Assembly: GCA_029258725.1 (NCBI GenBank)
Contig: JAPDKE010000005.1
Span: forward strand, 1-44,265
Length of the DNA: 44,265 nt
Source: a bacterium
Lineage (GTDB): Bacteria > Hydrothermota > UBA3072 > JAPDKE01
Reading direction: 5' to 3'
A program made the position numbers and the translations under genes. Below are positions 1,134 to 18,440 of the stretch, one piece after another. The first letter of the stretch is position 1; each line of letters opens with the position of its first letter. The notes beneath the pieces are model-generated. The model did no database searches, was not told the origin of the DNA, and saw nothing but the letters and a program-made list of their open reading frames with translations.

Positions 1134-3944
1134 TTACTTCATGAACATTATCTTACGCGTGATAACCTTCTCTCCTGCCTCCATCCTCACATAGTAAATT
1201 CCCGGAGGAACTGTCGGTCTCCATGTCACCATGTAGATTCCCTCCTTCTTTTCACCCTTCATTACAGTCTCAACCTTCCTTCCCATCGCGTTGTATATAC
1301 TCACGTTCAGGCTCATTCTCTCGGGAAGTGAGATGTAGAAGGTTGTTCCATCGTTAAAGATAACGGGCTTAACCATGAATGCGAGAACGGGTTTCTTGAC
1401 CACCGGTGCTCCCTCAAATGTGTATCCGAAGAACTCAAGTATTCTCTGCATCACCACATCCTGACGGGTATAGTATCCCGGAGGACCGTCTATTGCCTCG
1501 AATGGGAACGGGAAGTAAATCACCTTATACGTTGTCTCGTCTCCGTACCTCACTGCACCCGGCAGTCTCACAACTGCACCACCGGTATCCCATCTGTAAA
1601 AGTACATTGTATCCGCACCATTTATGGGATTCACTATATCAGGAGACTCGGTATTACTGGCTCCACCAAAGATTCCTGCAATAAAGATACTGTCAATAAC
1701 ATTTCCACTCTCATCCCTGTAAACGAGTTTGCGCTGTGCAACTGCATTTTCTATGATTGTATCCACCATTCCCACAACCTCTGCATGGAGATACTCGGTC
1801 ATGAATGTATCGTTCCCTATCTCCTCGGCAAGATACTGGGAGGAAAGGAAGAGATTGTATCCCGCGCCTCTGTTAAGGAAGGACTTTAATGAATCTATAT
1901 CCTCGGGCAGGAAGGGGAAGGTATCCGTTCCAGTAAACCATAGGACCGTCTTATACGCAGGATTCCGTATAAGGTATCTTGCGCTTCCCATATCCCAATT
2001 AACATATACCAGACCGAGCGCATCAAGAATTTTTGTGTAGAAGGTATCCAGTTCCGCATCCTCCGATGTATTTACAAGGACTATTTCCTCAGATGGCGTT
2101 CCTATATGGAAAACATAAGGGGTAGGGTGGTCATAAGGATCGTAGGCAAAGTTATCAGAGCCGTCGTATGCCACTATCCAGTAGATAATCCTAGAAGGAT
2201 AATACTGGACCGGTATGGTCCCGAGGTACTCATCCGGGTCCGTCGTGGGGAACATTATGGTGTAGGTGGTTTCCAGTTCGGAGTCTATATACCAGAGCTC
2301 CACCCTTTTGACATACCCGTATCTGTCTTTAACCCTTGTCACAACATCAAATGGACCCACTGCTGAAGTATCCGATACCGTAGCAGTACTCTCAAAATAT
2401 GGAGGGAATGTATCCAAAATCACGCACTTATAAGGACTTGCAGCTCCGGAGGAAGGATCAAACCCCAGGTTTCCATTTGTGTCTTCTGCTGCCAGGTAGT
2501 ACTTCAGCGTGAGAGGCAGAATCATTGTGGAATCCACAAAAGAGGGTATGGTGTAATAGTAAGTATCTGCCACAACCGAATCGTGAGAAACCCCGGTGTA
2601 TCCTGCACCATAGTCATAGTAGAGGGTATCCCATCCAATTCCGAATATATCCGTGATAACAGATTTTACAACATACGGTCCAAATGAAGGTGTGGAGTCC
2701 GGAAGAGTAAAAGTTACAAACACAGGAGGATCTATATCCCTTCCCTTTACAATGTATGCATAGCCAGGATTTGACCATGTTCCCACACCCACATCACCTA
2801 TTCCATCCTCGTTTATATCCCCAAGATAAGCAATAGCGTGTCCAGCATGATCCCCTGAATTTGGCGATGTAAACTCAAGGTCTGCATATCTATCCAGGTT
2901 ATCATGGGTGAGATATGCATAAACAGCATCTCCAGAAGGATAACTTATCACAAGTTCTGGAACACCATTACCAGTAACATCCCCTATCTCCACATCATAT
3001 CCAAAATCTCCACTTCCGCTGAAGGTATAATCACAGTCTGTATTAAACGGGTCGCCTCCGTAATAAACATAAACATTTCCAAACTGATCCGCGACCACCA
3101 GGTCATTGACACCATCTCCGTCAACCTCGCCTATGCATATCTCTCTTCCAAAAACCGCCCCGTCCGTTGTTCCGTACATAACCACATCCGCTACACTATC
3201 AATAAGAGCCCCTCCATAGTATATTTTAACCAGACCGGGATACGACACGGTGTTTCCATACCCACCAGCCACGATATCACATGCACCGTCACCGTTCACA
3301 TCTCCAAGGTCCAGTCCAAGTCCAATAGCCTCTCCTGCACTATCCGGATATATAACCATTGTATCACCCCAGAAAATTGTTCCACTGACCACGCTATCCA
3401 CAAAGAACACGTATATCCTTCCATCCAGTGCAAAAGACGGTGCAGCTGGTGCAGTAATAACCAGGTCTGCATACCCATTTCCATCCACATCCCCTGCTCC
3501 AAACCTCCATCCAAATACATCCGCAACATTCTCACCGGTAAAAATCACATCCGGGAGCGTATCCATATCTGCACCACCAAAGTAGATATAAACCCTTCCG
3601 GTGTAGCTCGCGTATGCCCTGGACCACACTCCAAAGTCCTCATACCCATCCTGGTTTAGATCCCCAAGTCCCTTGAGGCAATATCCAAAAGAATCCGTGG
3701 AAGTTTCTCCTTCAAATATCTTGTCCGGGAGTGTATCCATTGTGGCTCCACCATAGAAGAGATACGCCAGGTTCTCACCCGGTGATCCCACAATCAGGTC
3801 CGGTATTCCATCCCCGTTCACATCCGCTTCTCCAACTGCTTCACCAAAAAGTTCGCTTCCTTCAAAAGCCTTGAATACCTCCCACGGAGTCTGGGCAAAA
3901 ATCGGCAAAAAAAACAGGAGAAGGAACAGCACTGACTTCCTCAT
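1134..3944 (-). CDS. Giant exported FG-GAP beta-propeller protein with C-terminal sorting domain
   Basis: 936 residues. Residues 1-18 are a signal peptide (MRKSVLFLLLFFLPIFA). Residues about 35-390 hold seven FG-GAP/integrin-alpha-like repeats with calcium-loop motifs such as DVNGDGIPDL, DLNQDGYEDF and DVDGNGYADL, the right number for a closed seven-bladed propeller. Residues about 410-625 look like Ig-type strands. Residues about 630-830 form a flavodoxin/GATase-like alpha/beta segment (EEIVLVNTSEDAELDTFY onward), also seen in three other exported proteins here. The last 80 residues (YNAMGRKVET ... GIYYVRM ... KIMFMK) resemble the T9SS/FlgD-like C-terminal sorting domain. The start has AGGAGG 4 nt upstream and follows the 3956-6574 gene by 11 nt, so they are co-transcribed. 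Likely cell-surface; substrate unknown. Confidence 0.85.
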   Translation of the reverse strand: MRKSVLFLLLFFLPIFAQTPWEVFKAFEGSELFGEAVGEADVNGDGIPDLIVGSPGENLAYLFYGGATMDTLPDKIFEGETSTDSFGYCLKGLGDLNQDGYEDFGVWSRAYASYTGRVYIYFGGADMDTLPDVIFTGENVADVFGWRFGAGDVDGNGYADLVITAPAAPSFALDGRIYVFFVDSVVSGTIFWGDTMVIYPDSAGEAIGLGLDLGDVNGDGACDIVAGGYGNTVSYPGLVKIYYGGALIDSVADVVMYGTTDGAVFGREICIGEVDGDGVNDLVVADQFGNVYVYYGGDPFNTDCDYTFSGSGDFGYDVEIGDVTGNGVPELVISYPSGDAVYAYLTHDNLDRYADLEFTSPNSGDHAGHAIAYLGDINEDGIGDVGVGTWSNPGYAYIVKGRDIDPPVFVTFTLPDSTPSFGPYVVKSVITDIFGIGWDTLYYDYGAGYTGVSHDSVVADTYYYTIPSFVDSTMILPLTLKYYLAAEDTNGNLGFDPSSGAASPYKCVILDTFPPYFESTATVSDTSAVGPFDVVTRVKDRYGYVKRVELWYIDSELETTYTIMFPTTDPDEYLGTIPVQYYPSRIIYWIVAYDGSDNFAYDPYDHPTPYVFHIGTPSEEIVLVNTSEDAELDTFYTKILDALGLVYVNWDMGSARYLIRNPAYKTVLWFTGTDTFPFLPEDIDSLKSFLNRGAGYNLFLSSQYLAEEIGNDTFMTEYLHAEVVGMVDTIIENAVAQRKLVYRDESGNVIDSIFIAGIFGGASNTESPDIVNPINGADTMYFYRWDTGGAVVRLPGAVRYGDETTYKVIYFPFPFEAIDGPPGYYTRQDVVMQRILEFFGYTFEGAPVVKKPVLAFMVKPVIFNDGTTFYISLPERMSLNVSIYNAMGRKVETVMKGEKKEGIYMVTWRPTVPPGIYYVRMEAGEKVITRKIMFMK

Positions 3945-3955
3945 GATAGCCTCCT

Positions 3956-6574
3956 TTATTTTACCATAACAAGTTTATACACATGAGTGGATGCACCCTC
4001 TATCCTCAGGAAGTAAACCCCGGATGCAGCTCTCTCGCCATTATCTGTTTCTCCATTCCATACAAATTTATGGATACCCTTATCAAGCATACCCCTGAAC
4101 AGTGTTTTTACCTTTCTTCCCATCACATTGTATATTTCTATTTTCGCCTCCTTTCCTTCACCCGGTACGATAAGATTTACAGTACCATGGAAGGGGTTGG
4201 GGAATACCTTTACAGCATCCTTCTCAACCACTCCAGAAGGAACCCCAAACCTATGAACTCCTGCAACCGGCTCTGCATAGTAACTCTCCTCTCCAGAAAA
4301 TCCCACCGCGGTAACTGTCCAGAAGTAAAGAGTATCCGGAGGAACATCAGTATCTATGAAGGTATTATAACCTGCAGGAACCTCACCAATAAAGGTATAA
4401 GGACCGAGCTTACTCCTCCCACGATATACACGATATGCTACTAAGTTCCTGGGGAAGTTGGGATCCCACGAAACCACCATACCAATTGCACTGTCGTTGA
4501 CTGCTACATTTCTGGGAGCAGGTATACCTGGATTAATGAACCCAAGCACCCTCGATACAACCGTATCTCTCAGTGCCTGATCAGATACCAGAGTATCGAG
4601 AGAGGTCATTGCCTCAAGCAGGAAGGATGTCACAACAAGAGTGTAATCTCCACGATATGCTATACCGATGGGGTCTGTTCCTCTCTTCCAGAATACGGCA
4701 CATGCCTCAGAATCAGGATATATAAGGTCTGTATTATCCCATCCGAAGTTATTTCCATTAAGAGGCGAGAAGTACAGTCTTGCTTTTAAACCATAAACAA
4801 ATGGGGCTCCATCTCCAACCACCGTATCACACCTTGCATCCTTCACATAGGAATCAACATGGAGATATGCAAGGAAGAGAGAATCAAGAAGCGGGTTTGC
4901 AGGGTCAAATATGTTCTGTCCTGCAAGCCAGAGTTTTCCACCATGCCTGAGATACCCGAGTATCGCTTCTATCTCTGCCGTATCAAGGGGTGCATATCCA
5001 CTATAAAGCCTGTTGGGATAATCAGAACCTACCGTCCAGATAACCGCACCATGTCTCATCAGGTAGAGAGAGTCAGGAATTCCCTGAATACTGGTATGTA
5101 TCACATTGTATCTGTATCCGGAGGCTGCAAGTGCAGCATCCCAGTACTTATCCCAGTCAACACCATTCACATCGTACGCCTCTGCATCGTCATCAACAAG
5201 GAGTATCTCCTCAGGAGGAGGGAAGCCTCTTGGATACTTTCCAAGCACCGTCACATTGTCTATGTACATCGGTCCCGCAAGGAGTTCATCAGGGTCAGGC
5301 ATAACCATTATTCCAATCCTTATCTTTTTGCCTATGAATTCGCTCGGTATCTCAAATCCAACTCTCACCCATCCTGGAGTGCTCCCTACATATACATACC
5401 CCGTGGTAAAAATCCATGTCTTTCCATCATCCTCAGAAACCCAGATAGAGTAACAATCGAAGTCACCACAGTCTCCCTCGTTTATATCCCAGAAATCATA
5501 CTTTGCATCAAAGTAAAGAGAACAGGGGCGTGTTGTAAGAAGTCCTGAAAGATCTATAACAGGTGACCCAGCGAGATTCAGCAATCCACATGGAATGTAT
5601 GTTTCTGTGGAGTCAGAGCATACAAGGGAATGAGTGGGTGAGGAACAGTCATTCTCAGTAAGATGCCAGTAGTTCCCCTTCGGAACCTTGCACTGATATG
5701 TCCATCCATCATCCCCATCCTCAAAGTCCTCGTAGAATAACACAGTGGTACCAGTAGAAGAAATATCCACTATCCGAAGTGTATCTATCCACCATCCACC
5801 ATAAGGACCTCCATCAGCATCGGACTCAGCCGGGTCGGAGAGGAACGAAAATCTTATCATAACAACATTCCCTATATAAGGTGTGAGGTCAAATCCATAC
5901 TCCTTCCAGTCTCCATTTGTTCCACCCCATCCAGGAACATCAATTCCACAGTTTTTCCAGCATTCATCCCATGGTGCATTGTAAAACCATGCATAGGACT
6001 TGGTAAAAACATACCCGGTCCCCGGCCATCTCAGGGTATCAGGATAGAGAATCTCCCATGTATTTCCTGAATCGGTGGAAATCCAGAGGTTGAGACAGTC
6101 CCATCCATTGAAGGGCCCCCATGTTCCCGGCGCCTCTATATTGTAGTACTGCCAGTAAACAAGAAGCACCGTATCCCCTGCGGGAATGGATGTAAGGTCT
6201 ATGTAGGGGGTCATTGCATGCTGAACCCAGCCATTGGAGTATCCGTAAGGATTATTCCACCAGTCAGGTGCATATCTTCCACACCAGAGGCAGGAATCGC
6301 CCTGAAAAACTTTCATCGTATCAACATGCCAGTAAACTGTATCATGTCCTTCAAAGGCTATGTAATGACCATCCTTCGGAAAAAATACCTCCGCATCCTG
6401 AGCAGTAAAGTCATGAAAGGTCCACTCGAGACTCTCCCCTTCAAAATCCTCAAAGTACACCGTATCAAGGAAGGCACCTCCCTTGGGTAAGAATGCATCT
6501 TCTGTTCCTTTTTCCAAAACCTGAACGTTGCCTGGCTGGATGCTTACCGCCAGAAGCACCATCAACCCTATCAT
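3956..6574 (-). CDS. Giant exported protein: jelly-roll modules, GATase-like domain, Fn3, sorting domain
   Basis: 872 residues. The N-terminus MIGLMVLLAVSIQPGNVQ is a short signal peptide. Two jelly-roll/MAM-like modules follow (about 40-270 starting YFEDFEGESLEW, and about 275-440 starting LFYEDFEDGDDGW), of the type common in immune-inhibitor-A-like secreted proteins. Residues about 455-690 (EEILLVDDDAEAYD ... RHGGKLWLAGQNIF) form the GATase/flavodoxin-like segment shared with neighbouring exported proteins. Residues about 695-775 are a fibronectin type III domain (PRNVAVNDSAIGMVVSWD ... LYFWTVTAV). The last 85 residues are a T9SS-type sorting domain (VFPNPFHGTVNL, YNVMGRKVKTL, ASGVYFLRI). 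First gene of a two-gene unit behind the promoter at 6601-6629, with an AGGAGGTG ribosome site. No catalytic motif is evident. Confidence 0.8.
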   Translation of the reverse strand: MIGLMVLLAVSIQPGNVQVLEKGTEDAFLPKGGAFLDTVYFEDFEGESLEWTFHDFTAQDAEVFFPKDGHYIAFEGHDTVYWHVDTMKVFQGDSCLWCGRYAPDWWNNPYGYSNGWVQHAMTPYIDLTSIPAGDTVLLVYWQYYNIEAPGTWGPFNGWDCLNLWISTDSGNTWEILYPDTLRWPGTGYVFTKSYAWFYNAPWDECWKNCGIDVPGWGGTNGDWKEYGFDLTPYIGNVVMIRFSFLSDPAESDADGGPYGGWWIDTLRIVDISSTGTTVLFYEDFEDGDDGWTYQCKVPKGNYWHLTENDCSSPTHSLVCSDSTETYIPCGLLNLAGSPVIDLSGLLTTRPCSLYFDAKYDFWDINEGDCGDFDCYSIWVSEDDGKTWIFTTGYVYVGSTPGWVRVGFEIPSEFIGKKIRIGIMVMPDPDELLAGPMYIDNVTVLGKYPRGFPPPEEILLVDDDAEAYDVNGVDWDKYWDAALAASGYRYNVIHTSIQGIPDSLYLMRHGAVIWTVGSDYPNRLYSGYAPLDTAEIEAILGYLRHGGKLWLAGQNIFDPANPLLDSLFLAYLHVDSYVKDARCDTVVGDGAPFVYGLKARLYFSPLNGNNFGWDNTDLIYPDSEACAVFWKRGTDPIGIAYRGDYTLVVTSFLLEAMTSLDTLVSDQALRDTVVSRVLGFINPGIPAPRNVAVNDSAIGMVVSWDPNFPRNLVAYRVYRGRSKLGPYTFIGEVPAGYNTFIDTDVPPDTLYFWTVTAVGFSGEESYYAEPVAGVHRFGVPSGVVEKDAVKVFPNPFHGTVNLIVPGEGKEAKIEIYNVMGRKVKTLFRGMLDKGIHKFVWNGETDNGERAASGVYFLRIEGASTHVYKLVMVK

Positions 6575-6645: not shown

Positions 6646-7503
6646 TCAAACCTTTGCAAGTAAATCCTTCGGTTTTACCCTGTTAAGATTGAACCCGAGC
6701 TCCTCAGGAGGTATTCCAAGTGCAAGTCCAAGAAGCTGGGTGTAGTAAAGAACAGGAATTCCATACTTTGTATCAAACGTCTTTTCTATCTTACGCTGAT
6801 TCCCCTCGTACATCACCGTGCAGAAGGGACATATTGAAATAAGGGCATCAACCCCTTCCTTCTTCAGTGCATCAAGTTTCACCTTTGACATCGCAAGGGC
6901 TATGCCTTCCTCTATTCCCAGTATTCCTCCACCACAGCAATGGAGTTTCCTATCATACCATACACTTTCAGCACCTGTTGCCTCAATGAGCGCATCAAGG
7001 GAAACAGGATTTTCAGGATCATCAAATCCATACACCTCCGAAGGCTTTATATAATGACACCCATAGTGTGCACCAACCCTTATACCGCTGAGGGGCTTTG
7101 TAATCTGTTCTTTCAGTGCCTGAGGTCCTACCTTTTCCCAGAGAATCCTCACAAAGTGATAAACCTCTATGGTTCCATTGTAAGGGATATCCAGTTCCTG
7201 GTTTATTATGTTTCTGAGTTCCTCATCCTCCTTCAATGCCTCGTTTGCCTCAGCAAGAACGGAAGCACATGCACTGCAGAGCGTTACCAGGTCAAGCCCT
7301 TCCTTTTCAGCAAGTGCAAGATTCTTTGCAGAAAGGACGAGGGCTGTTTTTATATCAACGCTTTTAACAGGAAAACCACAGCATGAAAAATCAGAAATAT
7401 CAACCAGTTCTATTCCAAGCCTGTCGGCAACCTTTCTTGCAGAGAGTTCGTAGTTCATTCCCCTTACGGGGACAGTACATCCCAGAAAAAGTGCGTACCT
7501 CAT
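6646..7503 (-). CDS. hdrB: Heterodisulfide reductase-like subunit B (HdrB)
   Basis: 285 residues, the usual HdrB length. Two complete cysteine-rich CCG domains are present: C9, C41-C42 (SCCGFP), C76, C79; and C149, C189-C190 (HCCGGG), C225, C228. These are the ligands of the two non-cubane [4Fe-4S] clusters that, in methanogen HdrB, bind and cleave a disulfide. All ligands being present argues for a working catalytic subunit. In methanogens the substrate is CoM-S-S-CoB. A bacterium should lack those cofactors, so the substrate here is unknown. Last gene of the 11-gene operon; its ATG overlaps the hdrC stop by 4 nt, consistent with translational coupling to HdrC. Confidence 0.9.
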   Translation of the reverse strand: MRYALFLGCTVPVRGMNYELSARKVADRLGIELVDISDFSCCGFPVKSVDIKTALVLSAKNLALAEKEGLDLVTLCSACASVLAEANEALKEDEELRNIINQELDIPYNGTIEVYHFVRILWEKVGPQALKEQITKPLSGIRVGAHYGCHYIKPSEVYGFDDPENPVSLDALIEATGAESVWYDRKLHCCGGGILGIEEGIALAMSKVKLDALKKEGVDALISICPFCTVMYEGNQRKIEKTFDTKYGIPVLYYTQLLGLALGIPPEELGFNLNRVKPKDLLAKV

Positions 7504-8000
7504 TTCTCCTCCTTTATGTGCTCAAGAATTCCTGTCCGCTCAAATATCCTGGTCATCTCCTCGGGATTCCTCTTTATCTCCGGAAGTCCAAGTTTTGCTC
7601 TCTTTTTGTTGTCAAAGTCGGCTATTTCATAAAGACCACCATGGGTTTTAAGTGCATCAACCTGCGCAACAAAGGAGGGATGAATGTATCCATATTTCAC
7701 TGCAAGGTTTTTGAGCGCGGTCATGAGATCCGTTATCTTCACATCCTGGGGGCACCTTTCATGACAGGTATAACACGCAGAACAGAGCCAGATAAAATCA
7801 CTTTTTAATACCTCTTCCTTCATTCCAAGCAAAACCATGTGGATTATTTTTCTGGGATTGTATCGCTCATCTATCTCCCTCACCGGACACCCGGCAGTGC
7901 ATGTTCCACAGGCAAAGCACCTGGTTATGTTCTCCCCGCCGGGCTGTTCCATCACCTCAAATTTGAACTTTGGATCAAGTTTCTTCACATTTACAGGCAT
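7500..8000 (-). CDS. hdrC: Heterodisulfide reductase-like subunit C (HdrC)
   Basis: 166 residues with two [4Fe-4S] motifs: C28, C31, C34, C38 (CFACGTCTAGCP) and C73, C76, C79, C83 (CSACYTCHERCP). HdrC relays electrons from HdrA to the HdrB active site. The ATG at 8000 has GGGAGGT 4 nt upstream, and the coding sequence starts 26 nt inside the end of the protease gene. The approximately 80-residue tail after the clusters (KYGYIHPSFVAQVDALKTHGG) is typical of the family. It belongs to the soluble HdrABC type: no cytochrome b (HdrE) gene is nearby. Confidence 0.9.
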   Translation of the reverse strand: MPVNVKKLDPKFKFEVMEQPGGENITRCFACGTCTAGCPVREIDERYNPRKIIHMVLLGMKEEVLKSDFIWLCSACYTCHERCPQDVKITDLMTALKNLAVKYGYIHPSFVAQVDALKTHGGLYEIADFDNKKRAKLGLPEIKRNPEEMTRIFERTGILEHIKEEK

Positions 8001-8475
8001 AGAGACCTCCCATATCCTTTATTATTTCATCAACGATCTGTGGCAGCCTTTCCTCAAGTTCCCGGGAGAGGCTTTCCCTCCATCTTATATCATTCACCTC
8101 TATCCCGTATATCCTTATCACCTCAGGCATTTTATACCCGAGTTTCTTCCCGAGCTCTATCGCTCCCCGGAGGCTTATGGTGTGGGGAGAGGTAAGATGT
8201 ATCGTCCCCTCCAGGTCATCGGGGGAGAGAACGTGGATTCTGCCCGGATTTTCTCCTGCCATTGCATCCACAATAACAACCACATCATAACCCGAGAGGA
8301 CATCCAGTATCTTCAACCCGCCAACACTTCCGGTCTCAAAAACAACCCCCTCCCCCTTCCATCTTTTCTTCATCTCCTCAACCACCCTTATCCCCACACC
8401 ATCATCCCCCAGGATGGGATTTCCAAGTCCAAAAACAAGAACCCTATCTTGAAATGACCTCAAGCAGTTCTCCAT
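7975..8475 (-). CDS. [NiFe]-hydrogenase maturation protease (HycI/HyaD/FrcD family)
   Basis: 166 residues from the ATG at 8475. A longer frame to 8493 exists, and neither start has a clear ribosome site, so the start is uncertain; it lies inside the end of mvhA. Family motifs are present: VFGLGNPILGDDGVG (acidic residue of the GDDG motif), VIVDAM and SPHTIS, which correspond to the three Ni-sensing ligands (acidic, Asp, His) known for HybD. The enzyme removes the C-terminal peptide of the hydrogenase large subunit after nickel insertion. The adjacent mvhA product has a 25-residue extension after its DPCxxCxxH motif, which is the expected substrate. Confidence 0.88.
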   Translation of the reverse strand: MENCLRSFQDRVLVFGLGNPILGDDGVGIRVVEEMKKRWKGEGVVFETGSVGGLKILDVLSGYDVVVIVDAMAGENPGRIHVLSPDDLEGTIHLTSPHTISLRGAIELGKKLGYKMPEVIRIYGIEVNDIRWRESLSRELEERLPQIVDEIIKDMGGLYACKCEET

Positions 8476-9916
8476 GGTGGTCGTAAATCTCAATCCTTAT
8501 CGGCATTGTTCCGGGAAGGGTATGGGTCGCACAGGAGAAGCACGGGTCGTATGCCCTGAACGCCATCTCTACCATGTTAAGTATCCCCTCATCCACCTTT
8601 CCGTTCTTTATCAGAGCCTTTGCTGCCCTGTTTATGGACATGTGCATTCCCGCATAGTTGAATGCGGTTGCAACAATAAGGTTGAGTTCGGTAACAATAC
8701 CGTTCTCATCTGCCCTGTAGTGATGTATGAGTGAACCTCTTGGTGCCTCCACTCCTCCAATTCCCTCTCCTCTGTAATTCTCAGGATGGGGAATGGCCCT
8801 CACATTGGGATCCGTTATCTCCGGATCTCTTGCAAGTTCAAGAACACGCTCTGCTGCATAGAGTGCCTCTATTGCCCTTGCCCAGTGGAAGGTGAGGGTG
8901 TTGTGAACGGGCTTTCCTCCCATGAACTCAAAGAACTTCTCATAAGCCTCCTGAGCCTTCGGGGTTGCCATTCCATCTGCTGCATTCAGTCTTCCAAGGG
9001 GTGCAGCCCTCATTATTCCTGAATCCTTACCCTCAACAAATCCCTTCCATCCTATATCTTTAAGATAAGGGAACTTGAGATAACTCCAGGGCTCAACATG
9101 CTCCCTTATGTGGTCAAGATAGTCCTCCGGCTTGAACTTCACTATCTCCTTTCCTTCAGGATCAACAACCCTGAATTCTCCCTCATAGAAGTTCACCCTG
9201 TTCCTGTCATCAACCAGCCCTATGTAGTTTGTCTCGTGGTAGTATATCTCCTTGCTCATTATCAGGTCCAGGTATTCCTTATTCTGGAGAATTATCTTGT
9301 CCACAACCTCATCCAGGGTGAAGCAGCAGAAGTCAACAAGCTCCTGCGCCATCTTTTCTATTTCTTTTCTGTCCTCCTCCTTTAGAGGATGAGAGACTCC
9401 TCCGGGAATTGCATAAACCGGATGCGTTGACTTTCCTCCAAGCATATCCTCTATCTTCACTGCATAAGCCCTGTTCTTTATCACCGTCATTCCTATATCC
9501 ATTCCAACCTTCTCAATCACACCAAATATATTCCTCTTCTTCGGGTCTGCCTTCGGTCCAACTATGAAGTCAGGAGCAGGACCCAGTGCATAGAAGTGCT
9601 CAAGATGGGACTCAAGGAAGTGGGCACAGTATCCCATCTCCCTCAGCTTCTTTCCTGCTGGAGGAGGCTCAACTCCAAAAACACCATCGGTTGCCTTTGC
9701 CGATGCTATGTGGTGCGCCCATGGACAGACACCGCAGAGCCTTGTGAGAATCCTGGGAAGCTCCTCAACCGGTCTTCCCTTGCAGAACTCCTCAAATCCC
9801 CTGAGCTCCACTATCTGGAAGTATGTATCATCAACATTTCCCTTATCATCCAGGAATATCACTATTTTTGCGTGTCCCTCAAGCCTTGTTACTGGCTCTA
9901 TTCTTATCTCCTTCAT
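8444..9916 (-). CDS. mvhA: [NiFe]-hydrogenase large subunit, MvhA-like (group 3c)
   Basis: 490 residues from the ATG at 9916, which has AGGAGGTG just upstream; an in-frame start at 9940 is less likely because it precedes that site. The N-terminal L1 motif is C61-G-V-C64-P-W-A-H and the C-terminal L2 motif is DPC459-F-S-C462-A-T-H465, giving four Cys ligands for the Ni-Fe centre. A 25-residue tail follows H465 and should be cleaved on maturation. Relatedness to F420-non-reducing hydrogenase is supported by the MvhG, MvhD and HdrABC neighbours. It oxidises or evolves H2 in the cytoplasm as part of a hydrogenase-Hdr complex. The stop region overlaps the maturation protease gene. Confidence 0.92.
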   Translation of the reverse strand: MKEIRIEPVTRLEGHAKIVIFLDDKGNVDDTYFQIVELRGFEEFCKGRPVEELPRILTRLCGVCPWAHHIASAKATDGVFGVEPPPAGKKLREMGYCAHFLESHLEHFYALGPAPDFIVGPKADPKKRNIFGVIEKVGMDIGMTVIKNRAYAVKIEDMLGGKSTHPVYAIPGGVSHPLKEEDRKEIEKMAQELVDFCCFTLDEVVDKIILQNKEYLDLIMSKEIYYHETNYIGLVDDRNRVNFYEGEFRVVDPEGKEIVKFKPEDYLDHIREHVEPWSYLKFPYLKDIGWKGFVEGKDSGIMRAAPLGRLNAADGMATPKAQEAYEKFFEFMGGKPVHNTLTFHWARAIEALYAAERVLELARDPEITDPNVRAIPHPENYRGEGIGGVEAPRGSLIHHYRADENGIVTELNLIVATAFNYAGMHMSINRAAKALIKNGKVDEGILNMVEMAFRAYDPCFSCATHTLPGTMPIRIEIYDHHGELLEVISR

Positions 9917-9920
9917 CTCT

Positions 9921-10934
9921 TCACCTCCTGTCCTCAACAACCCTCCTCAGGAGGGACCTGGGGAGTGAGAACCTGTAAAAGCATCCAAGCGGGTCCTTTA
10001 TCTGGGATACAAGTTTCTCTATCTCCTCTTCCGATATTTCTATCTCGTCCTCTCTTATACCGAGAATGGAGGCAATTGCAGAGAGCATGGAACCACCCTG
10101 GTCCATCACCCGTGATGTTGGTCCCATGCATCCCCTGCATGGCATGTTTGCCTCAATACAGGGAGCACCGCATCCCGCCCTGGTTGCAGGTCCGAGGCAG
10201 AGTATTCCCTGCTCAAGGAAGCACTTATCAGGATCCGGATTTACCTCTGATATGTATCTTATCCTGTCAACCTTTATGTTCTTCTCCTTACCGGGATTTC
10301 TCGGACACTCGTCGCACAGGGTCTTTTCCTCTGCTATAACCGTTCCCTTTGGCGGAAGCTCCGCCTTCCCCTCAACCCACGCCTTTATGAGTTCAAGTAT
10401 CTGCATGTTCATCTTGTGGGTTGGAGGACATGCAGGGACATAGTAGTCAACATCAACTATATCATCAAGTGCATATACCTCATCAAAGAATTCAGGGAGA
10501 GTGAGGGTCCTTCCCTTCTCGTCCTTCCACTCCGTCTGCGGATATACTCCCTCCGGATTTTCGGTTGAGAAGGTCTTTTTATAGACCGTCTCAAATATCT
10601 TCTCACGGTTGGAAACATTGGCAAGCCCAGGAATTCCTCCCATGTGAGCGCAGGCACCATAGGCAATCAAAACCTGGCACTTTTTCCTCATCACCTCTGC
10701 AAGGTGTGCATTCTCAGAATTCCTGACAGCCCCGTGATAGAGACCTATGGTTATGGACTTGTCGGGCATTGCCTCAAGGTCCTTGTACTTCACATCTATA
10801 AGGGTGGGGGAAAAGACCACATCCGCAATTTCAAGCAGTTCAAAGAGTTTTTCGCTGAAGTTCACCACCGCTATATCACACCCAACGCAACTTGCCCCCC
10901 TCTTCAGGGCAAGGGTTATCTTTTTCTTAGCCAT
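9921..10934 (-). CDS. mvhG: [NiFe]-hydrogenase small subunit, MvhG-like
   Basis: 337 residues. The proximal cluster begins with C16-V-G-C19; further ligands are in IAYGACAHMGG and VPACPPTH. The C-terminal part holds CDECPRNPGK and the run CFLEQGILCLGP/CGAPCIEANMPCRGCMGP for the medial and distal [4Fe-4S] clusters. There is no twin-arginine signal, so it is cytoplasmic. It passes electrons from MvhA to MvhD. The start overlaps the mvhD stop by 8 nt, with GGAGGTAAGG upstream, and mvhA follows 4 nt after its stop, consistent with stoichiometric expression. Confidence 0.92.
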   Translation of the reverse strand: MAKKKITLALKRGASCVGCDIAVVNFSEKLFELLEIADVVFSPTLIDVKYKDLEAMPDKSITIGLYHGAVRNSENAHLAEVMRKKCQVLIAYGACAHMGGIPGLANVSNREKIFETVYKKTFSTENPEGVYPQTEWKDEKGRTLTLPEFFDEVYALDDIVDVDYYVPACPPTHKMNMQILELIKAWVEGKAELPPKGTVIAEEKTLCDECPRNPGKEKNIKVDRIRYISEVNPDPDKCFLEQGILCLGPATRAGCGAPCIEANMPCRGCMGPTSRVMDQGGSMLSAIASILGIREDEIEISEEEIEKLVSQIKDPLGCFYRFSLPRSLLRRVVEDRR

Positions 10935-11372: not shown

Positions 11373-14300
11373 TTACTCTTCAAGTGCGGCATCTATCATT
11401 GCATATATCTGGTCGGATGTGAATCCTTTCTGTTCCATGGCACCGGATGGACATGCTGCTATACATCCACCACATCCCTTACAGAGCGCCTCGTTAACCT
11501 TTGCAAGTTTTATCTCTTTATCATCAACAACCTCAGTTACTATCTCAATTGCACCAAACTCGCACACTCCCTCACATATTCCACATCCATCACACAGGTC
11601 TTCGTTGACAGCAGCAATCTTGGGCTCTGCTTTGTATTTCTCCTTGGAAAGGACCGTCTGTGCCCTTGCTGCCGCCGCCTGAGCCTGTGCAATGGTCTCC
11701 TCTATATGCTTGGGGGAGTGAGCAAGCCCACAGAGGAAGACACCCTCGGTGGCAAAGTCAACGGGCCTGAGCTTGACATGTGCCTCAAGGAAGAATCCAT
11801 CCTCATTGAGAGGAACCTTGAAGAACTTGGAGAGTTCCTCGTTGTTTTCTCTTGACGCAACAATACCTGCGGAGAGAACAAGGAGGTCAACCGGTATCTC
11901 AACAGTGTCTCCCAGGAGTTCATCATAAACAGAGACAACCAGCTCTTTCCCCTTCTTCTTCACCTGAGGTGGCTTCTCCTCATCGTATCTTATAAACACG
12001 CATCCCTTCTCCCTGAGTTCGTTGTAGAACTTCTCCCTGAATCCGTATGTCCTCATGTCCCTGAAGAGAATGTAAATCTCTGCCTCTGGATTCTCATCAA
12101 GGATGCGGTTGGCATTCTTTACTGCCTGGGTGCAGCATATCCTGGAACAATATGGATGCTCATCATTTCTGGAGCCCACACACTGTATCATAACCACCCT
12201 TCCGAGTTTCTTCGGGTCTATTTCTCCCTTTGCAATCTTCTCTTCAAATTCTGCCTGGGTGAGAACCCTCTTATCCTCTCCGTACATGTATTCCTTAGGT
12301 ATGTATTTATCCGCACCCGTTGCTATTATTGCAACTCCATGTTCAAGAACAACCTCACCCTCGGGAGTCTCCAGGGTGGTCTTGAAATTACCAACAAATC
12401 CCTCAACCTTTTTTATCTGTGAATTGAGATATACCTTTATCCTGGGTTCAAGCTCTACCTGATTTATGAGGGATGCAAGGAAGGACTGAATATCCGGGGA
12501 CCAGTTTGTGTAATAGATGCCTCTGAGATGACCTCCCAGATGCTCTGACTTTTCAACGAGATATACCTCGTATCCTCCCCTTGCTATTTCAAGTGCTGCA
12601 ACCATTCCCGCAAGCCCACCACCTATGACCAGTGCGCGCTGGGTTATGTCAAGGTAAAATTCCTCAAGCGGGAAGAGCTTTGCGGCCTTTGCAACCGCCA
12701 TTCTCACCAGGTCCTTTGCCTTCTGGGTTGCCGCCTCCTTATCATGCATGTGTATCCAGGAGCACTGCTCCCTGATGTTCGCCATCTCAAAGAGGTATGG
12801 ATTGAGCCCTGCCTCCCTGAGGGTTTCCTGGAAGAGGGGCTCATGTGTCCTGGGTGTACAGGACGCAACCACAACCCGGTTGAGTTTCTCACGCTCTATT
12901 ATCTCCTTTATCCTGTTCTGGGTATCCTGGGAGCATGTGTAGAGGTTATCCTCCGCATAGACAACGTAGGGAAGCGTCTTAGCATACTCAACAACCTCCT
13001 TCACATTCACATACGCCCCTATGTTTATGCCGCAGTGGCATATAAATACGCCTATTCTCGGCTCCTCTCCCGAGACATCCCTCTCAGGAGGATACTCCTT
13101 CTTCTTTATCTGTGTCCCTCTCACATTCCTGAGCAATGCTGCAATCCTTGCAACAGCACCACTTCCCTGGGTTACGGATTCAGGAATATCCTTGGGTCCC
13201 TGGAATGCTCCCGCAACAAATATCCCCTCCTTTGATGTCTCAAGCGGGGAGCGGAAGAGTGTATCAACAAATCCATAGGGGTTGAGTTCTATTCCAAGTT
13301 TCTGTGCGAGTTTCTCAAAGTTCCTTGGAGGTGTCAGACCGACCGAGAGAACAACCAGGTCAAATCTCTCCTCTTTGAGTTTTCCATTCTCTTCATACTT
13401 TATAATGAGGTCCTTTGTCTCCGGATCCTCTCTCACCTCTGACACCCTGCACCTTATGAATCTTACTCCCTGGTTCTTCTTCGCATTCTGATAGTACTGC
13501 TCAAATCCCTTACCATAGCACCTCATATCCATCATGAATATCGTGGGCTCTATGTCCGCCTCATGCTCTTTGGTCATCACAGCCTGCTTTATCGCATACA
13601 TGCAGCATACCGACGAACAGTACTCCCTTCCATCCTTTATATCCCTTGAGCCAACACACTGTATCCATGCTATGCGCTTCGGTATCTTTCCATCAGAAGG
13701 TCTCTGCACGTGTCCCTGGAAGGGTCCGGATGCGGAAAGGATTCTCTCATACTGCATGGATGTAACCACATTTTCATATCTTCCGTATCCATACTCCGGC
13801 TTTCCTGTGGGGTCATAGGGGGTGAATCCGGGAACGAGAAGGATTGCACCAACATGGAGCGTTTCTGTTTTTTCTTTGTCGTCATACTTTATAGCCCTTG
13901 CAAGACAGAGATTTTCACAGAGTCCGCATCCTATACATGCATCTCTATCTATAACATAGCTTCTGGGAACCGCCTGAGGATACTTGACATACACTCCTTC
14001 CCTCAGGTCCAGTCCCTCATTGTATTCATTTATGGCCCTTACCGGACAGTTCCTTGCACACTCACCACATCCGGTACATTTCTCAGGGTCTATGTATCTC
14101 GGATACTGCTTTATCACGACCTCAAAGTTTCCCGCCTCCCCTCTCACCTCCTCTATCTCCGCCATAGTGATTATGTCTATGTTCAGGTCCCTTCCACACT
14201 CAACCAATTTGGGAGCCATGATACACATGGAGCAGTCGTTGGTGGGGAAGGTCTTGTCAAGCTGGGCCATAACACCGCCAATTGCAGTGGAACTCTCAAG

Positions 14301-14444
14301 CATGTAGACATGGAAGCCATTCTGGACCAGGTCAAGGGCTGCCTGCATCCCTGCAATGCCACCACCAACGACAAGAACAGAACCAACCTCTTTTCTTGCA
14401 GTTACAGGTTTTCCTTTTAGCGTTCTGAATCTATCCTTTACCAT
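11373..14444 (-). CDS. hdrA: Double-module HdrA-like flavoprotein (bifurcating core)
   Basis: 1023 residues, versus about 650 for methanogen HdrA. Module 1 has the FAD loop GGGIAG (27-32), the HdrA motif DKTFPTNDCSMC (C71, C74, with C83 following), and two ferredoxin motifs (C123-C133 and C170-C180). The HdrA linker CHCG (470) and SCTPRTHEPLF (529-538) leads to module 2, whose second FAD loop GGGLAG is at 608-613. The C-terminus has two more [4Fe-4S] motifs (C951-C961 and C988-C998). In methanogens the HdrA FAD is the bifurcation site that splits electrons between ferredoxin and the HdrB disulfide. Module 2 lacks the DKTFPT...CSxC segment, so the flavins may have different jobs. The ribosome site is GAGGTGAGGG. 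Confidence 0.88.
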   Translation of the reverse strand: MVKDRFRTLKGKPVTARKEVGSVLVVGGGIAGMQAALDLVQNGFHVYMLESSTAIGGVMAQLDKTFPTNDCSMCIMAPKLVECGRDLNIDIITMAEIEEVRGEAGNFEVVIKQYPRYIDPEKCTGCGECARNCPVRAINEYNEGLDLREGVYVKYPQAVPRSYVIDRDACIGCGLCENLCLARAIKYDDKEKTETLHVGAILLVPGFTPYDPTGKPEYGYGRYENVVTSMQYERILSASGPFQGHVQRPSDGKIPKRIAWIQCVGSRDIKDGREYCSSVCCMYAIKQAVMTKEHEADIEPTIFMMDMRCYGKGFEQYYQNAKKNQGVRFIRCRVSEVREDPETKDLIIKYEENGKLKEERFDLVVLSVGLTPPRNFEKLAQKLGIELNPYGFVDTLFRSPLETSKEGIFVAGAFQGPKDIPESVTQGSGAVARIAALLRNVRGTQIKKKEYPPERDVSGEEPRIGVFICHCGINIGAYVNVKEVVEYAKTLPYVVYAEDNLYTCSQDTQNRIKEIIEREKLNRVVVASCTPRTHEPLFQETLREAGLNPYLFEMANIREQCSWIHMHDKEAATQKAKDLVRMAVAKAAKLFPLEEFYLDITQRALVIGGGLAGMVAALEIARGGYEVYLVEKSEHLGGHLRGIYYTNWSPDIQSFLASLINQVELEPRIKVYLNSQIKKVEGFVGNFKTTLETPEGEVVLEHGVAIIATGADKYIPKEYMYGEDKRVLTQAEFEEKIAKGEIDPKKLGRVVMIQCVGSRNDEHPYCSRICCTQAVKNANRILDENPEAEIYILFRDMRTYGFREKFYNELREKGCVFIRYDEEKPPQVKKKGKELVVSVYDELLGDTVEIPVDLLVLSAGIVASRENNEELSKFFKVPLNEDGFFLEAHVKLRPVDFATEGVFLCGLAHSPKHIEETIAQAQAAAARAQTVLSKEKYKAEPKIAAVNEDLCDGCGICEGVCEFGAIEIVTEVVDDKEIKLAKVNEALCKGCGGCIAACPSGAMEQKGFTSDQIYAMIDAALEE

Positions 14445-14447
14445 CCC

Positions 14448-15221
14448 TCACCTCGCTTTTATGGTTGCCTGATATTTTGGTGCTCTATCTTCCCACCCAA
14501 CAAGTTCTATCTTTGCCTTGCGCTTCATTTCCACAATTGCGGAGAATATCTCCCTGGGACTCTTTCCTATAACCTTTGAAAGCTCAACCGGTGTCATGGG
14601 CTTATCCTTGGTATAGTATGCAATCTGGGCAATAAGGAACTGGTCTTCCAGTCTCCTTTCAAGAATTTTCTGGAAGTCCTCCTCAGGATAGGGTTCTCCA
14701 TAAACGTTCTCAAGAGTAACAAGTGTCCATTCTCTTCCAACAAGCCACTTTATATCCTCATCAAGAAGGGTGAGGTCTATTATCTCCCATATGTAACCCA
14801 GTTCTTCCTTTTTCTTTCCTATCTCCTCACCGATGGGACCGAGTTTTTTCACGTAGTCCCGGTATTCTTCATACACCTGGAGAATTTCGGTATCGGACTC
14901 AAGGTTAAGTCTCACCCTGTCAGGATTTATTCCAAACATGGAGAGGACGTAACGATATGCCTTCACAACCCTCTCCGCCTGATAGTTTCCTGTCCTGTAG
15001 TTACAGTCCCCCTTCCTGCAGCCCATTATGAGTACTCCATCAGCACCTTTTCTGAATGAGTAGGTGATGAGTTCAGGGTTTACCCTTCCAGAACATGTAA
15101 CCCTTATGAAGTTTGCCTTTTTTGGGAAAAAGAGGCGTGTGAGTCCGATGAAGTCTGCTGCCTGGAGGGAACACCAGTCACATACAAATGGAACAATAAG
15201 GGGATTGAATTCGTTCTTCAT
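14448..15221 (-). CDS. Extended MvhD-like subunit (copy 2) with extra C-terminal domain
   Basis: 257 residues. Residues 1-140 align with MvhD and keep all five cysteines (C14, C17, C43, C68, C73: VCDWCSLQAAD, VTCSGRVNP, GCRKGDCNY). Residues about 145-257 are an added domain: two helices rich in charged residues, then a stretch around 195-250 (KPMTPVELSKVIGKSPREIFSAIVEMKRKAKIELV, read in overlapping parts) that has the look of a winged-helix or small helical docking module. The function of the extension is unknown; it could anchor the NAD(P) flavoproteins or the ferredoxin encoded just upstream. The start overlaps the ferredoxin stop by 4 nt, and hdrA begins 3 nt after its end. Confidence 0.85.
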   Translation of the reverse strand: MKNEFNPLIVPFVCDWCSLQAADFIGLTRLFFPKKANFIRVTCSGRVNPELITYSFRKGADGVLIMGCRKGDCNYRTGNYQAERVVKAYRYVLSMFGINPDRVRLNLESDTEILQVYEEYRDYVKKLGPIGEEIGKKKEELGYIWEIIDLTLLDEDIKWLVGREWTLVTLENVYGEPYPEEDFQKILERRLEDQFLIAQIAYYTKDKPMTPVELSKVIGKSPREIFSAIVEMKRKAKIELVGWEDRAPKYQATIKAR

Positions 15222-15880
15222 CTGGATACCTCCACGAGTTTGTCCACGGTTTCAAATGCCTTTTCATCCGTAAAGTAGTTCATGGTTATTGCATCCCTGG
15301 GACATGAGGCTGCACATATTCCACATCCCCTGCAGAGGTCCTTGTTTATCACTGCCTTTCTTCCCTTCTCGGTTTCCTCAAGCCTTATCGCACCCCTGAG
15401 ACAGAGGGACTCACACAGACCGCACCCGATACAGCGGTCATGGTTCACCTCGTAAACCTCCTCAAATACAAGAACCTCATTTGGACATGCCTGGACGCAT
15501 GCAGGAGGTCTCTCCATCATGCACTTATCACACTTGAGAACCCTGTGCCCCTCAACATCCGCAAGGATTGCACCGTAGGAGCACATCTTGAGGCAGGTCC
15601 AGCATCCAACGCACTTGTCATAATCAACCAGAACCATTCCTGTTTCAGGGTCCCTGTGCATTGCACCGGTGATACATGCAAAGAGGCATGTCGGGTCCTC
15701 ACAGTGCCTGCACTGGATGGGCATGGGTTTCGTCCCACCCATGGACACACCGACATGCATCCTCCTTGCAGTCAGGATAAGTTCCTCATCCTTCCCCCTC
15801 CCCTCCTCCTTATGTTTCTCTGCACATGCAACCTCGCATGCCCTGCATCCAACACACTTGTCTATTTCTGCAAGTATCAT
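15218..15880 (-). CDS. Six-cluster ferredoxin-like electron transfer protein
   Basis: 220 residues from the ATG at 15880, which has GAGGAGGT 4 nt upstream; the frame opens further 5' but without a site. Six four-cysteine groups are visible in order: CVGCRACEVAC, CRHCEDPTCLFAC, CVGCWTCLKMC, CDKCMMERPPACVQAC, CIGCGLCESLC and CRGCGICAASC. The first four follow the DmsB/HycB/CooF four-cluster layout and the last two are a typical 2[4Fe-4S] ferredoxin, implying up to six [4Fe-4S] clusters. It lies between the NAD(P)H-type flavoproteins and the Mvh/Hdr subunits, so it is a natural electron wire between them. Cytoplasmic; no signal peptide. Confidence 0.85.
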   Translation of the reverse strand: MILAEIDKCVGCRACEVACAEKHKEEGRGKDEELILTARRMHVGVSMGGTKPMPIQCRHCEDPTCLFACITGAMHRDPETGMVLVDYDKCVGCWTCLKMCSYGAILADVEGHRVLKCDKCMMERPPACVQACPNEVLVFEEVYEVNHDRCIGCGLCESLCLRGAIRLEETEKGRKAVINKDLCRGCGICAASCPRDAITMNYFTDEKAFETVDKLVEVSR

Positions 15881-15890
15881 GCCGACCTCC

Positions 15891-17111
15891 TCAGTATATG
15901 AAAGTGGCCTTATCCTCAAGAAGGGAGGACTTTATATTCTCAACATCTATTCTTCTCCTTAAAAGCCTGTTGAGTCCTCCCACATTCACCGTTCTCCCAA
16001 TGATAGCAGCACCCCTTATTCTTCCGTTCTCAAGAATTATCCTCTGGTATATGTTGCGCTTTATATCCCTCTCCACAATCACCTTATATCCTTCCTTAAC
16101 CGTTTTAACATCGCCCATCACAATACAGGAAACCCCCTCAAAATCCAAGGAATTCATCCGGTGTGCACCTATGTATTCTTTCCTGAAGCCCGCCATGTTG
16201 AGACCCGCATAGTGCCCCTGCTCACTCGCCCTGGGCCATACCGCAACGGTATTGCTTCCACCGGTGAGAATGTCATAGGATTCGGCAACATCCCCTGCTG
16301 CGTAAACATCGGGGACAGAGGTCTGCATGTACCCGTCCACTATTATTCCAACATTTGCCCTTATCTTCCTTCTATCTATGAAGTCAAGGGCAGGGGTAAC
16401 TCCCTTTCCTATAATAACAAGGTCAGCAGGCAGTTCATCTCCGTTGTCCAGAATTGCCTTCTTCACAAACCCATTCCCCCTGAATTCAACAACACTCGTT
16501 CTCGTCATGAGTTTCACACCGGATTCAACGAGTTTGCGCTCAAGGAGAGAGGCTGACTCCGCATCAAGAACCTGGGACATAACATGGGGGGAGGAAACAA
16601 GAACGCTCACCTCAATCCCGCTGTGATGTGCAAGGGAAAGAGCGGCTTTGAGTCCAAGTGGTCCTCCTCCAAGTATGAGTGCATGTTTCACACGGGGAAG
16701 GATTTTCATTATCTTCTCAACATAAACAAGGCTTGTGAGATAGTAAATCCCCTCAAGGTCAAGCCCCTTTATCTTCGGCTCTCTGGGCTTCCCACCGGTT
16801 GCTATGAGCAGTTTATCGTATGCAACCCTTCTTCCACTTGCAAGGACAACAAGTTTTCTGTCCACATCTATTTCTATCACGGGTTCTCCAAGGATGGGTT
16901 TTACACCATAGGTATCGTAGAAATCAGGGGGTCTGAAGAATACATCCTCATATTTTATGGTTCCACCTATGATGAATGGAAGGAGAGGTTTTGAATAGGG
17001 TCTGTATGGTTCTCCGTTTATGTTTACTATCTCTCCCTCCATATCAACCTTTCTTATTGCCTCAATCGCTGATACTCCAGCAGGTCCATTTCCTATGATT
17101 ACATACCTCAT
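15891..17111 (-). CDS. FAD/NAD(P)-dependent oxidoreductase (paralog B, NirB/rubredoxin-reductase type)
   Basis: 406 residues from the ATG at 17111, preceded by GAGAGGTGG; the GTG at 17117 is an alternative start. FAD-binding VIIGNGPAGVSAIEAIRK lies at the N-terminus, the second dinucleotide fold ALILGGGPLGLKAAL near residue 145, and the FAD-contact motif YAAGDVAES near 280. The region EPYRPYSKPLLPF replaces the redox-active cysteine found in CoA-disulfide reductases and NADH oxidases, so it resembles NirB/rubredoxin-reductase-type proteins passing electrons to a partner. At the end of the second strand of the nucleotide fold it has VLVSSPH where paralog A has VVEIAER, which could mean NADP(H) rather than NAD(H). 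It is 10 nt upstream of the ferredoxin gene. Confidence 0.82.
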   Translation of the reverse strand: MRYVIIGNGPAGVSAIEAIRKVDMEGEIVNINGEPYRPYSKPLLPFIIGGTIKYEDVFFRPPDFYDTYGVKPILGEPVIEIDVDRKLVVLASGRRVAYDKLLIATGGKPREPKIKGLDLEGIYYLTSLVYVEKIMKILPRVKHALILGGGPLGLKAALSLAHHSGIEVSVLVSSPHVMSQVLDAESASLLERKLVESGVKLMTRTSVVEFRGNGFVKKAILDNGDELPADLVIIGKGVTPALDFIDRRKIRANVGIIVDGYMQTSVPDVYAAGDVAESYDILTGGSNTVAVWPRASEQGHYAGLNMAGFRKEYIGAHRMNSLDFEGVSCIVMGDVKTVKEGYKVIVERDIKRNIYQRIILENGRIRGAAIIGRTVNVGGLNRLLRRRIDVENIKSSLLEDKATFIY

Positions 17112-17120
17112 ACCCACCTC

Positions 17121-18341
17121 TCAGTATGCAAAGATGAATTTTTCCTCAAGCAGGTTTTCCTTGTAGACACCGACCTTCACCCGCTTCCTTATAAGCCTGT
17201 TCATTGCACTCATGTTTATGAATCTCCCAACGGTTATTGCTCCGCGCACAACATCGTTTTCCAGGATTATCTTGTGATAAACATACTCCTCGGGAATCTC
17301 CTTGACCAGGATTTCATAGTGGGGTTTCTCCGTGAATATGTCACCAACGGAGATGCATGATATCCCGAAGAAGGAAACGGAGTTCATTCCATATCCACCA
17401 ATGTATTCCTTCTTAAAGCCCGCCATGTTGTATCCTGCCGTGTATCCCTGTTCACTCGCCCTTGGCCATACCGCTGAAAGGTTGCTCATCCCGGTTATAA
17501 CGTCCTTTGATTCGGTGACATCTCCTGCTGCGTATATGTTGGGTTCTGTTGTCTGCATGTAGTTGTCAACGATGACCCCTATGTTAACCCTTGCCTCTGT
17601 CCCCTTAAGGAAGTTGAATACAGGTCTCAATCCTGCTGCAAGGATGACAAGCTGGCACGGGATTCTTTCACCATTTGAAAGCCTTGCACCCACTATTTTC
17701 CCATTCACCCTCTCTATCTCATCAACGCTCGTCCTGAGATGGAACTTTATTCCGTTTTCTTCCATCACATGCTGCAGGAACTCACTTGCCCTTGCATCGG
17801 TTGCAAAGGGCATTATTCTCTCAGCAATCTCAACAACGGTAACGTCAAGCCCTCTTATTCTCAGTGCCTCTGCTGATTTGAGCCCTATGAGTCCCGAACC
17901 TATAACCAGAACCTCTTTTGTATCCGGAAGGCAGGAGAGGATTCCCCTTGCATGATCAAGGGAGGTTAAGGGATAAACCCCCTCACCCTCAAGCCCCGGA
18001 ATCGGGAGTTTTACAGGCTTTCTTCCTGTTGCAACGAGCAGGCGGTCGTAGTAAATTTTCTTTCCACTTTTCAGAACAACCCACTGCTTTTTTGAATCAA
18101 CCTCCACAACCTCATCTCCAAGAATGGGCTCAACCCTGTGGTCCCGGTAAAAAGTCTTTGGTCTTATGTATATCCTTTCCTCATCCACCTTTCCTGCAAC
18201 GAGATAGGAAAGGAGCGGTCTGGAATATGGAAGGTATGGTTCATCTGCAATATTCACAATCCTTCCCTTCTCATCCGCCTTTCTTATCGCCTCTATGGCA
18301 TTTACCCCTGCGGCAGAGTTTCCTATAACCACATATTCCAT
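17121..18341 (-). CDS. FAD/NAD(P)-dependent oxidoreductase (paralog A, first gene of the Hdr-Mvh operon)
   Basis: 406 residues. FAD fold YVVIGNSAAGVNAIEAIRK at 3-21, nucleotide fold VLVIGSGLIGLKSAEALR near 145, and YAAGDVTES near 280. Like its tandem paralog, it lacks the redox cysteine (EPYLPYSRPLLSYL). The glutamate in VVEIAER at the end of the second strand predicts NAD(H) specificity. Both share the C-terminal ending (NLLEEKFIFAY here) and many exact segments, such as VWPRASEQG and NMAGF(K/R)KEYIG, so they arose by duplication. As first gene it sits 64 nt downstream of the predicted transcript start, behind a Rex-like operator. Its ribosome site is weak (GGGGGC). Likely role: NADH exchange with the Hdr/Mvh complex (inference from context). 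Confidence 0.82.
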   Translation of the reverse strand: MEYVVIGNSAAGVNAIEAIRKADEKGRIVNIADEPYLPYSRPLLSYLVAGKVDEERIYIRPKTFYRDHRVEPILGDEVVEVDSKKQWVVLKSGKKIYYDRLLVATGRKPVKLPIPGLEGEGVYPLTSLDHARGILSCLPDTKEVLVIGSGLIGLKSAEALRIRGLDVTVVEIAERIMPFATDARASEFLQHVMEENGIKFHLRTSVDEIERVNGKIVGARLSNGERIPCQLVILAAGLRPVFNFLKGTEARVNIGVIVDNYMQTTEPNIYAAGDVTESKDVITGMSNLSAVWPRASEQGYTAGYNMAGFKKEYIGGYGMNSVSFFGISCISVGDIFTEKPHYEILVKEIPEEYVYHKIILENDVVRGAITVGRFINMSAMNRLIRKRVKVGVYKENLLEEKFIFAY

Positions 18342-18395: not shown

Positions 18396-18413
18396 TTGTG
18401 CTTTTTTTCACAA
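18396..18413. promoter_or_regulatory. Rex-like operator over the Hdr-Mvh promoter
   Basis: TTGTGCTTTTTTTCACAA matches the established Rex consensus TTGTGA-N6-TCACAA at 11 of 12 fixed positions, in an inverted repeat with the correct 8-nt spacing between TTGTG and CACAA. It overlaps the downstream end of the predicted -10 box and covers the start-site region, the expected place for a repressor. Rex is released by NADH, so binding here would couple the operon to the NADH/NAD+ ratio. No rex gene lies in this window. Site identification is by pattern, function is inference. Confidence 0.7.
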
Positions 18414-18440
18414 TGTAAACCATGATGGAATTTTTGTCAA
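18412..18440 (-). promoter_or_regulatory. Sigma70-like promoter of the 11-gene Hdr-Mvh operon
   Basis: On the minus strand TTGACA (18440-18435) is followed after exactly 17 nt by TACATT (18417-18412). The predicted start is near 18405, giving a leader of about 64 nt. All eleven downstream genes to 6646 are spaced by at most 11 nt or overlap, so this is the only evident promoter for the operon. Confidence 0.72.

Follow-up and report, generated by a model that had tools for sequence, protein, structure and literature searches.

A predicted Rex-type operator at the promoter of an Hdr-Mvh operon in a Hydrothermota draft genome in which rex was not found

Introduction

The window analysed here, the whole stretch of 44,265 nucleotides of contig JAPDKE010000005.1 (assembly GCA_029258725.1) from a bacterium of the Hydrothermota, contains an operon for an NADH-linked Hdr-Mvh complex with a palindrome at its promoter. 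The palindrome resembles the operators of Rex, which responds to NADH/NAD+. This raised the question whether the operon belongs to a Rex-type regulon, and which protein would read the site. The palindrome, related sites in the same genome and in genomes of the same class, and the search for rex are described in the following.

The Hdr-Mvh Operon

The operon was found to be organized as described in the first-pass annotation, with flavoproteins of the NAD(P)H type in the lead, followed by ferredoxin, FlpD, HdrA, MvhD/G/A, a protease, HdrC and HdrB. Its genes are the following:

17121..18341, minus strand: gene 1, FAD/NAD(P)-dependent oxidoreductase, PadH-like NADH-oxidising subunit (Pyr_redox_2 and Rubredoxin_C), with an ortholog in G008 that is 71% identical
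15891..17117, minus strand: gene 2, PadH-like oxidoreductase, a paralog of gene 1
15218..15919, minus strand: polyferredoxin-type electron-transfer subunit
14448..15221, minus strand: FlpD/MvhD-like subunit with a C-terminal extension
11373..14444, minus strand: HdrA, 1023 aa
10927..11361, minus strand: MvhD/VhuD-like subunit
9921..10934, minus strand: MvhG/VhuG-like hydrogenase small subunit
8444..9940, minus strand: MvhA/VhuA-like [NiFe] hydrogenase large subunit, sharing 80% identity with those of G008 and G009
7975..8493, minus strand: HycI-type hydrogenase maturation protease
7500..8000, minus strand: HdrC
6646..7503, minus strand: HdrB

The C-terminal extension of the FlpD/MvhD-like subunit comprises about 125 residues and is also present in the ortholog from G008; part of the extension there has a weak match to the winged-helix-type domain HVO_A0114. 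HdrA is longer than the HdrA models of 760-780 aa that it matched, and two separate FAD/NAD-type Rossmann regions were identified in it, around residues 20-60 and 600-645. Two large proteins with C-terminal FlgD_ig / Por_Secre_tail sorting domains are encoded after HdrB, at 1134-6574 of the window; they are probably exported and apparently unrelated to the Hdr-Mvh complex.

The Palindrome and the Promoter

Upstream of gene 1, two features were identified:

18412..18440, minus strand: sigma-70-type promoter, with TTGACA at 18440-18435, a 17-base spacer and TACATT at 18417-18412
18413-18396, minus strand: predicted Rex-type operator palindrome TTGTGAAAAAAAGCACAA; the plus strand reads TTGTGCTTTTTTTCACAA at 18396-18413

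Transcription is predicted to start about 7 bases downstream of the -10 box, approximately at the centre of the palindrome. The end of the palindrome is followed after 54 bases by the start codon of gene 1 (18341). The overlap with the -10 box of the TTGACA-17-TACATT promoter, claimed earlier, was confirmed and consists of two bases, 18412-18413, which are also the last two of the box. A recount against TTGTGA-N6-TCACAA likewise reproduced the earlier value of 11 out of 12 fixed bases. Compared to the published 18-bp Rex consensus TTGTGAANNNNTTCACAA, which is quoted in PMC6391272 and PMC5317091, TTGTGAAAAAAAGCACAA agrees at 12 of the 14 fixed bases, with both mismatches in the right half. The promoter matches its own consensus at 10 of 12 bases; since shuffled sequences yield 0.8 such sites per 500 bases, this match is weak by itself.

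Further Sites in the Same Genome

The genome is available as a 2.11-Mb draft of 53 contigs which is 95% complete. A matrix was trained on eight sites, all from Rex-bearing relatives and hand-chosen among the motif hits there, and was used to scan 2.02 of the 2.11 Mb. At a score of at least 16, five matches were identified in promoter zones, as set by simple open-reading-frame calls, and all of them precede anaerobic redox enzymes. With column-permuted palindromic matrices a mean of 0.32 promoter matches was obtained, and five were reached in none of 300 cases. One of the five matches is the site at the promoter of the Hdr-Mvh operon, with a score of 17.44 under this relatives-only matrix. The other four lie before fermentation and redox genes; a scan for further sites before fermentation or hydrogenase genes had been proposed in the first-pass annotation:

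C10:47533: site before glutamate dehydrogenase (gdh)
C1:45179: site before pyruvate synthase PorC-PorD-PorA
C2:92164: site before indolepyruvate ferredoxin oxidoreductase (ior)
C5:8993: site before L-glutamate gamma-semialdehyde (P5C) dehydrogenase

The sites of gdh and of the Hdr-Mvh operon had already been known when the matrix was trained, while those of pyruvate synthase, ior and P5C dehydrogenase had not. All five overlap the -35 box, the spacer, the -10 box or the start region. The gdh site is a perfect TGTGA-N6-TCACA and is located 24 bases before the gene, compared to about 25 bases in the Rex-bearing G001. A sixth match (L210:230, AAGTGAAATCATTAACAA) was dropped, as it lies within an open reading frame whose first part resembles a signal peptide, and matches within genes (L217:2443, L165:10891, L115:3299 and others) were dropped as non-promoter.

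Sites in Related Genomes

Rex is encoded in eight of nine genomes of the same class, in two of which it was confirmed by NCBIfam. The motif was identified before rex in G004 and G002 and before the second rex of G008, and it is also present before the rex gene cluster of G008 and at the corresponding uvrC end of G009. In addition, it precedes the glutamate dehydrogenase genes of G001, G008 and G009 and a sulfhydrogenase-type hydrogenase operon of G008. The geometry found in the window, with a site that overlaps the -10 region downstream of a TTGACA, recurs at several of these places.

For the Hdr-Mvh operon, an orthologous operon was identified in G008, a Guaymas MAG (record QNDZ01000060.1). 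The gene order of the window is kept there from gene 1 through gene 2, ferredoxin and FlpD to the start of HdrA, and MvhA and the remaining genes are on a separate contig. The promoter region of 257 bp holds two Rex-type sites, TTGATAAAAAAATCACAA and TTGTGAAAAAGTTAACAT (L001 3351-3368 and 3475-3492), with TTGTGAAAAAGTTAACAT located a few bases after a TATAAT. Among 20,000 sequences simulated with the composition of this region, none had two sites as good as these. The conservation in related genomes, on which the first reading had been made to depend, is thus given for the presence of the motif in the promoter of this operon, but not for its place, since the exact promoter position of the window site is not conserved in G008.

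The five-promoter result of the matrix, together with the sites in the operon and gdh promoters of Rex-bearing relatives, makes it very likely that the genome harbours the regulon of a Rex-type repressor. For the palindrome in the window, the assignment as a predicted Rex-type operator is well supported by these results and by the occurrence of the motif before rex, glutamate dehydrogenase and hydrogenase genes in relatives.

The Search for rex and the Identity of the Regulator

The search for a rex homologue elsewhere in the genome, on which the first reading had also been made to depend, gave a negative result. No rex was found in the 95%-complete draft by Pfam PF06971, a search of the draft with a ten-sequence Rex alignment matched only Rossmann-domain enzymes, and a local N-terminal Rex HMM with all filters off identified no Rex on the stretches taken. 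In G008, the rex neighbourhood has the order uvrC-thioesterase-ferritin-rex. Here, the gene next to uvrC is thiD and the thioesterase gene is succeeded by recX-mnmE, both well inside contigs. Neither rex nor the ferritin-like gene was found, so that rex is not at the place it has in G008. Since rex was not found in the draft and its neighbours in the relative are apart here, Rex is either encoded in the missing 5% of the assembly, or has been lost, or has been replaced.

The most probable reading, to which we assign a probability of about 0.62, is that the palindrome is the operator of an NAD(H)-responsive Rex-family repressor which is not in the draft, and that the block exerted on the operon and on four co-targets would be relieved by NADH. 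The earlier view of the site as a Rex operator is partly supported: it gains from the promoter regulon of the genome itself and from the sites in Rex-bearing relatives, and it loses from rex not having been found in the draft.

Alternatively, the operators may be real, but Rex may have been lost in this lineage, with another regulator binding them or with the sites persisting as recent unbound relics. The negative search for rex, the rearranged neighbourhood without rex, and the differences of the genome's own sites in the outermost bases are consistent with such a loss. However, five intact promoter sites speak against decay, and no candidate for a replacement regulator was found. Moreover, G003, the other genome of the class without detected Rex, has neither a site before glutamate dehydrogenase nor more sites than expected, so that the sites seem to disappear when rex does. 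This comparison suggests that sites vanish along with rex, which makes an undetected Rex in the present genome somewhat more likely; it is a weak argument, since it concerns one genome and since some Rex-bearing genomes are also without a glutamate dehydrogenase site. A loss of Rex is for these reasons considered unlikely, though it has to be kept in mind. Still less likely is a swap of regulators, in which rex would have been lost while the whole set of Rex-type operators was kept and is now read by an unrelated regulator.

Binding by a regulator of the CRP/FNR family has to be considered because TGTGA-N6-TCACA, to which the gdh site conforms perfectly, is also the CRP-type consensus, and one protein of the genome contains a cyclic-nucleotide-binding domain together with a weak match to HTH_Crp_2. 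The helix-turn-helix of this candidate, however, is below the Pfam cut-off. In the recognition helix of CRP, Arg-Glu...Arg reads TGTGA; the candidate's helix is without these residues, as judged by eye from the translation. The other sites have GTTA halves, which are typical of Rex, the same motif is located before rex genes in relatives, and the sites are placed like those of a repressor. A CRP/FNR-type regulator is accordingly regarded as highly improbable.

Just as improbable is a chance origin, in which an A-tract next to an AT-rich promoter would happen to form an inverted repeat: with up to 2 mismatches to the 14-base consensus there are 13 places in the genome versus 8 for the reversed control, and about 0.2-0.3 such places are expected in the 44-kb window, but a site as good as this one in its 115-bp intergenic stretch has, under a matrix from the Rex-type sites of relatives, a P of about 0.00015, before allowing for the many other motifs that might have been noticed, and the functional coherence of the five promoters and the sites in the promoter of the orthologous G008 operon also speak against chance. 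TTGTG-N8-CACAA occurs three times in the genome, and the two occurrences besides the window site fall within genes. The consensus counts are near background and were therefore not used as support for the Rex reading.

A Model for the Regulation of the Operon

From the computed site, the promoter geometry, the five-promoter regulon and the sites in the operon of a Rex-bearing relative, we infer binding, repression, the identity of the regulator as Rex and its response to NADH. At a low NADH/NAD+ ratio, a Rex-family repressor would occupy the palindrome and would block RNA polymerase at the Hdr-Mvh promoter, as suggested by the position of the palindrome, which has its centre at the transcription start and reaches into the -10 box. 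A buildup of NADH would release the repressor, so that the operon for the PadH-like-Hdr-Mvh complex (NADH/ferredoxin/H2) would be transcribed, along with the genes for glutamate dehydrogenase, pyruvate synthase, indolepyruvate oxidoreductase and P5C dehydrogenase. The earlier proposal, in which a buildup of NADH turns the operon on, follows from the known behaviour of Rex and may be taken as a working hypothesis. High-NADH control of NADH-producing enzymes, like glutamate dehydrogenase and P5C dehydrogenase, does not correspond to the textbook logic, and since the regulon includes such enzymes, the physiology appears to be less simple than this proposal.

Comparison to Known Rex Systems

The targets of Rex in Caldicellulosiruptor bescii include hydrogenases and pyruvate:ferredoxin oxidoreductase (PMC6391272). 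The regulon described here is similar in having 18-bp palindromes near TTGTGAANNNNTTCACAA in promoters and pyruvate:ferredoxin oxidoreductase/hydrogenase targets. However, C. bescii has a rex gene, gel shifts demonstrated binding, and its hydrogenases are of the Ech and [FeFe] types (PMC6391272), whereas the present case concerns a PadH-like-Hdr-Mvh operon, rex was not found, and the site is predicted from sequence. For Caldithrix abyssi, a Rex site has likewise only been predicted, before a rex-[FeFe]-hydrogenase cluster (PMC5317091); there, rex is the first gene of the cluster, whereas no rex is nearby in the present case. A predicted Rex site was also reported on the operon of the bifurcating hydrogenase Hnd of Solidesulfovibrio fructosivorans (PMC10084766). 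In both cases, the operon with the proposed Rex site links NAD(H), ferredoxin and H2, but Hnd is a different, [FeFe]-type enzyme with no Hdr or Mvh.

This is a solid regulatory assignment whose kind is known already, with a regulator that is missing without explanation. Through it, an NADH-linked Hdr-Mvh complex of the electron-bifurcation type, from a bacterium of an uncultured lineage, is connected to a type of regulon which senses NADH and which also holds enzymes of amino-acid fermentation. From this shared regulon it might be guessed that, in the course of that fermentation, the complex transfers electrons among NADH, ferredoxin and H2.

Other Palindromes near rex and Hydrogenase Genes

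In G008, the sulfhydrogenase-type hydrogenase genes (beta, gamma and delta; L132:190-2905, G008:C90) are preceded by two Rex-type palindromes. Downstream of the second rex of this genome (L136:1495-2649, G008:C36) there is a gene which, as judged by eye, encodes an MnhE-like antiporter subunit. Upstream of this rex there is a long perfect palindrome, TGTGAAAGTTAAAACTTTCACA, which overlaps the -10 region of the rex gene. A different perfect palindrome, GTGCAAGTTTAAACTTGCAC, is conserved before rex in two genomes of the same phylum, G018 and G029 (L022 and L023), and is possibly a variant Rex operator.
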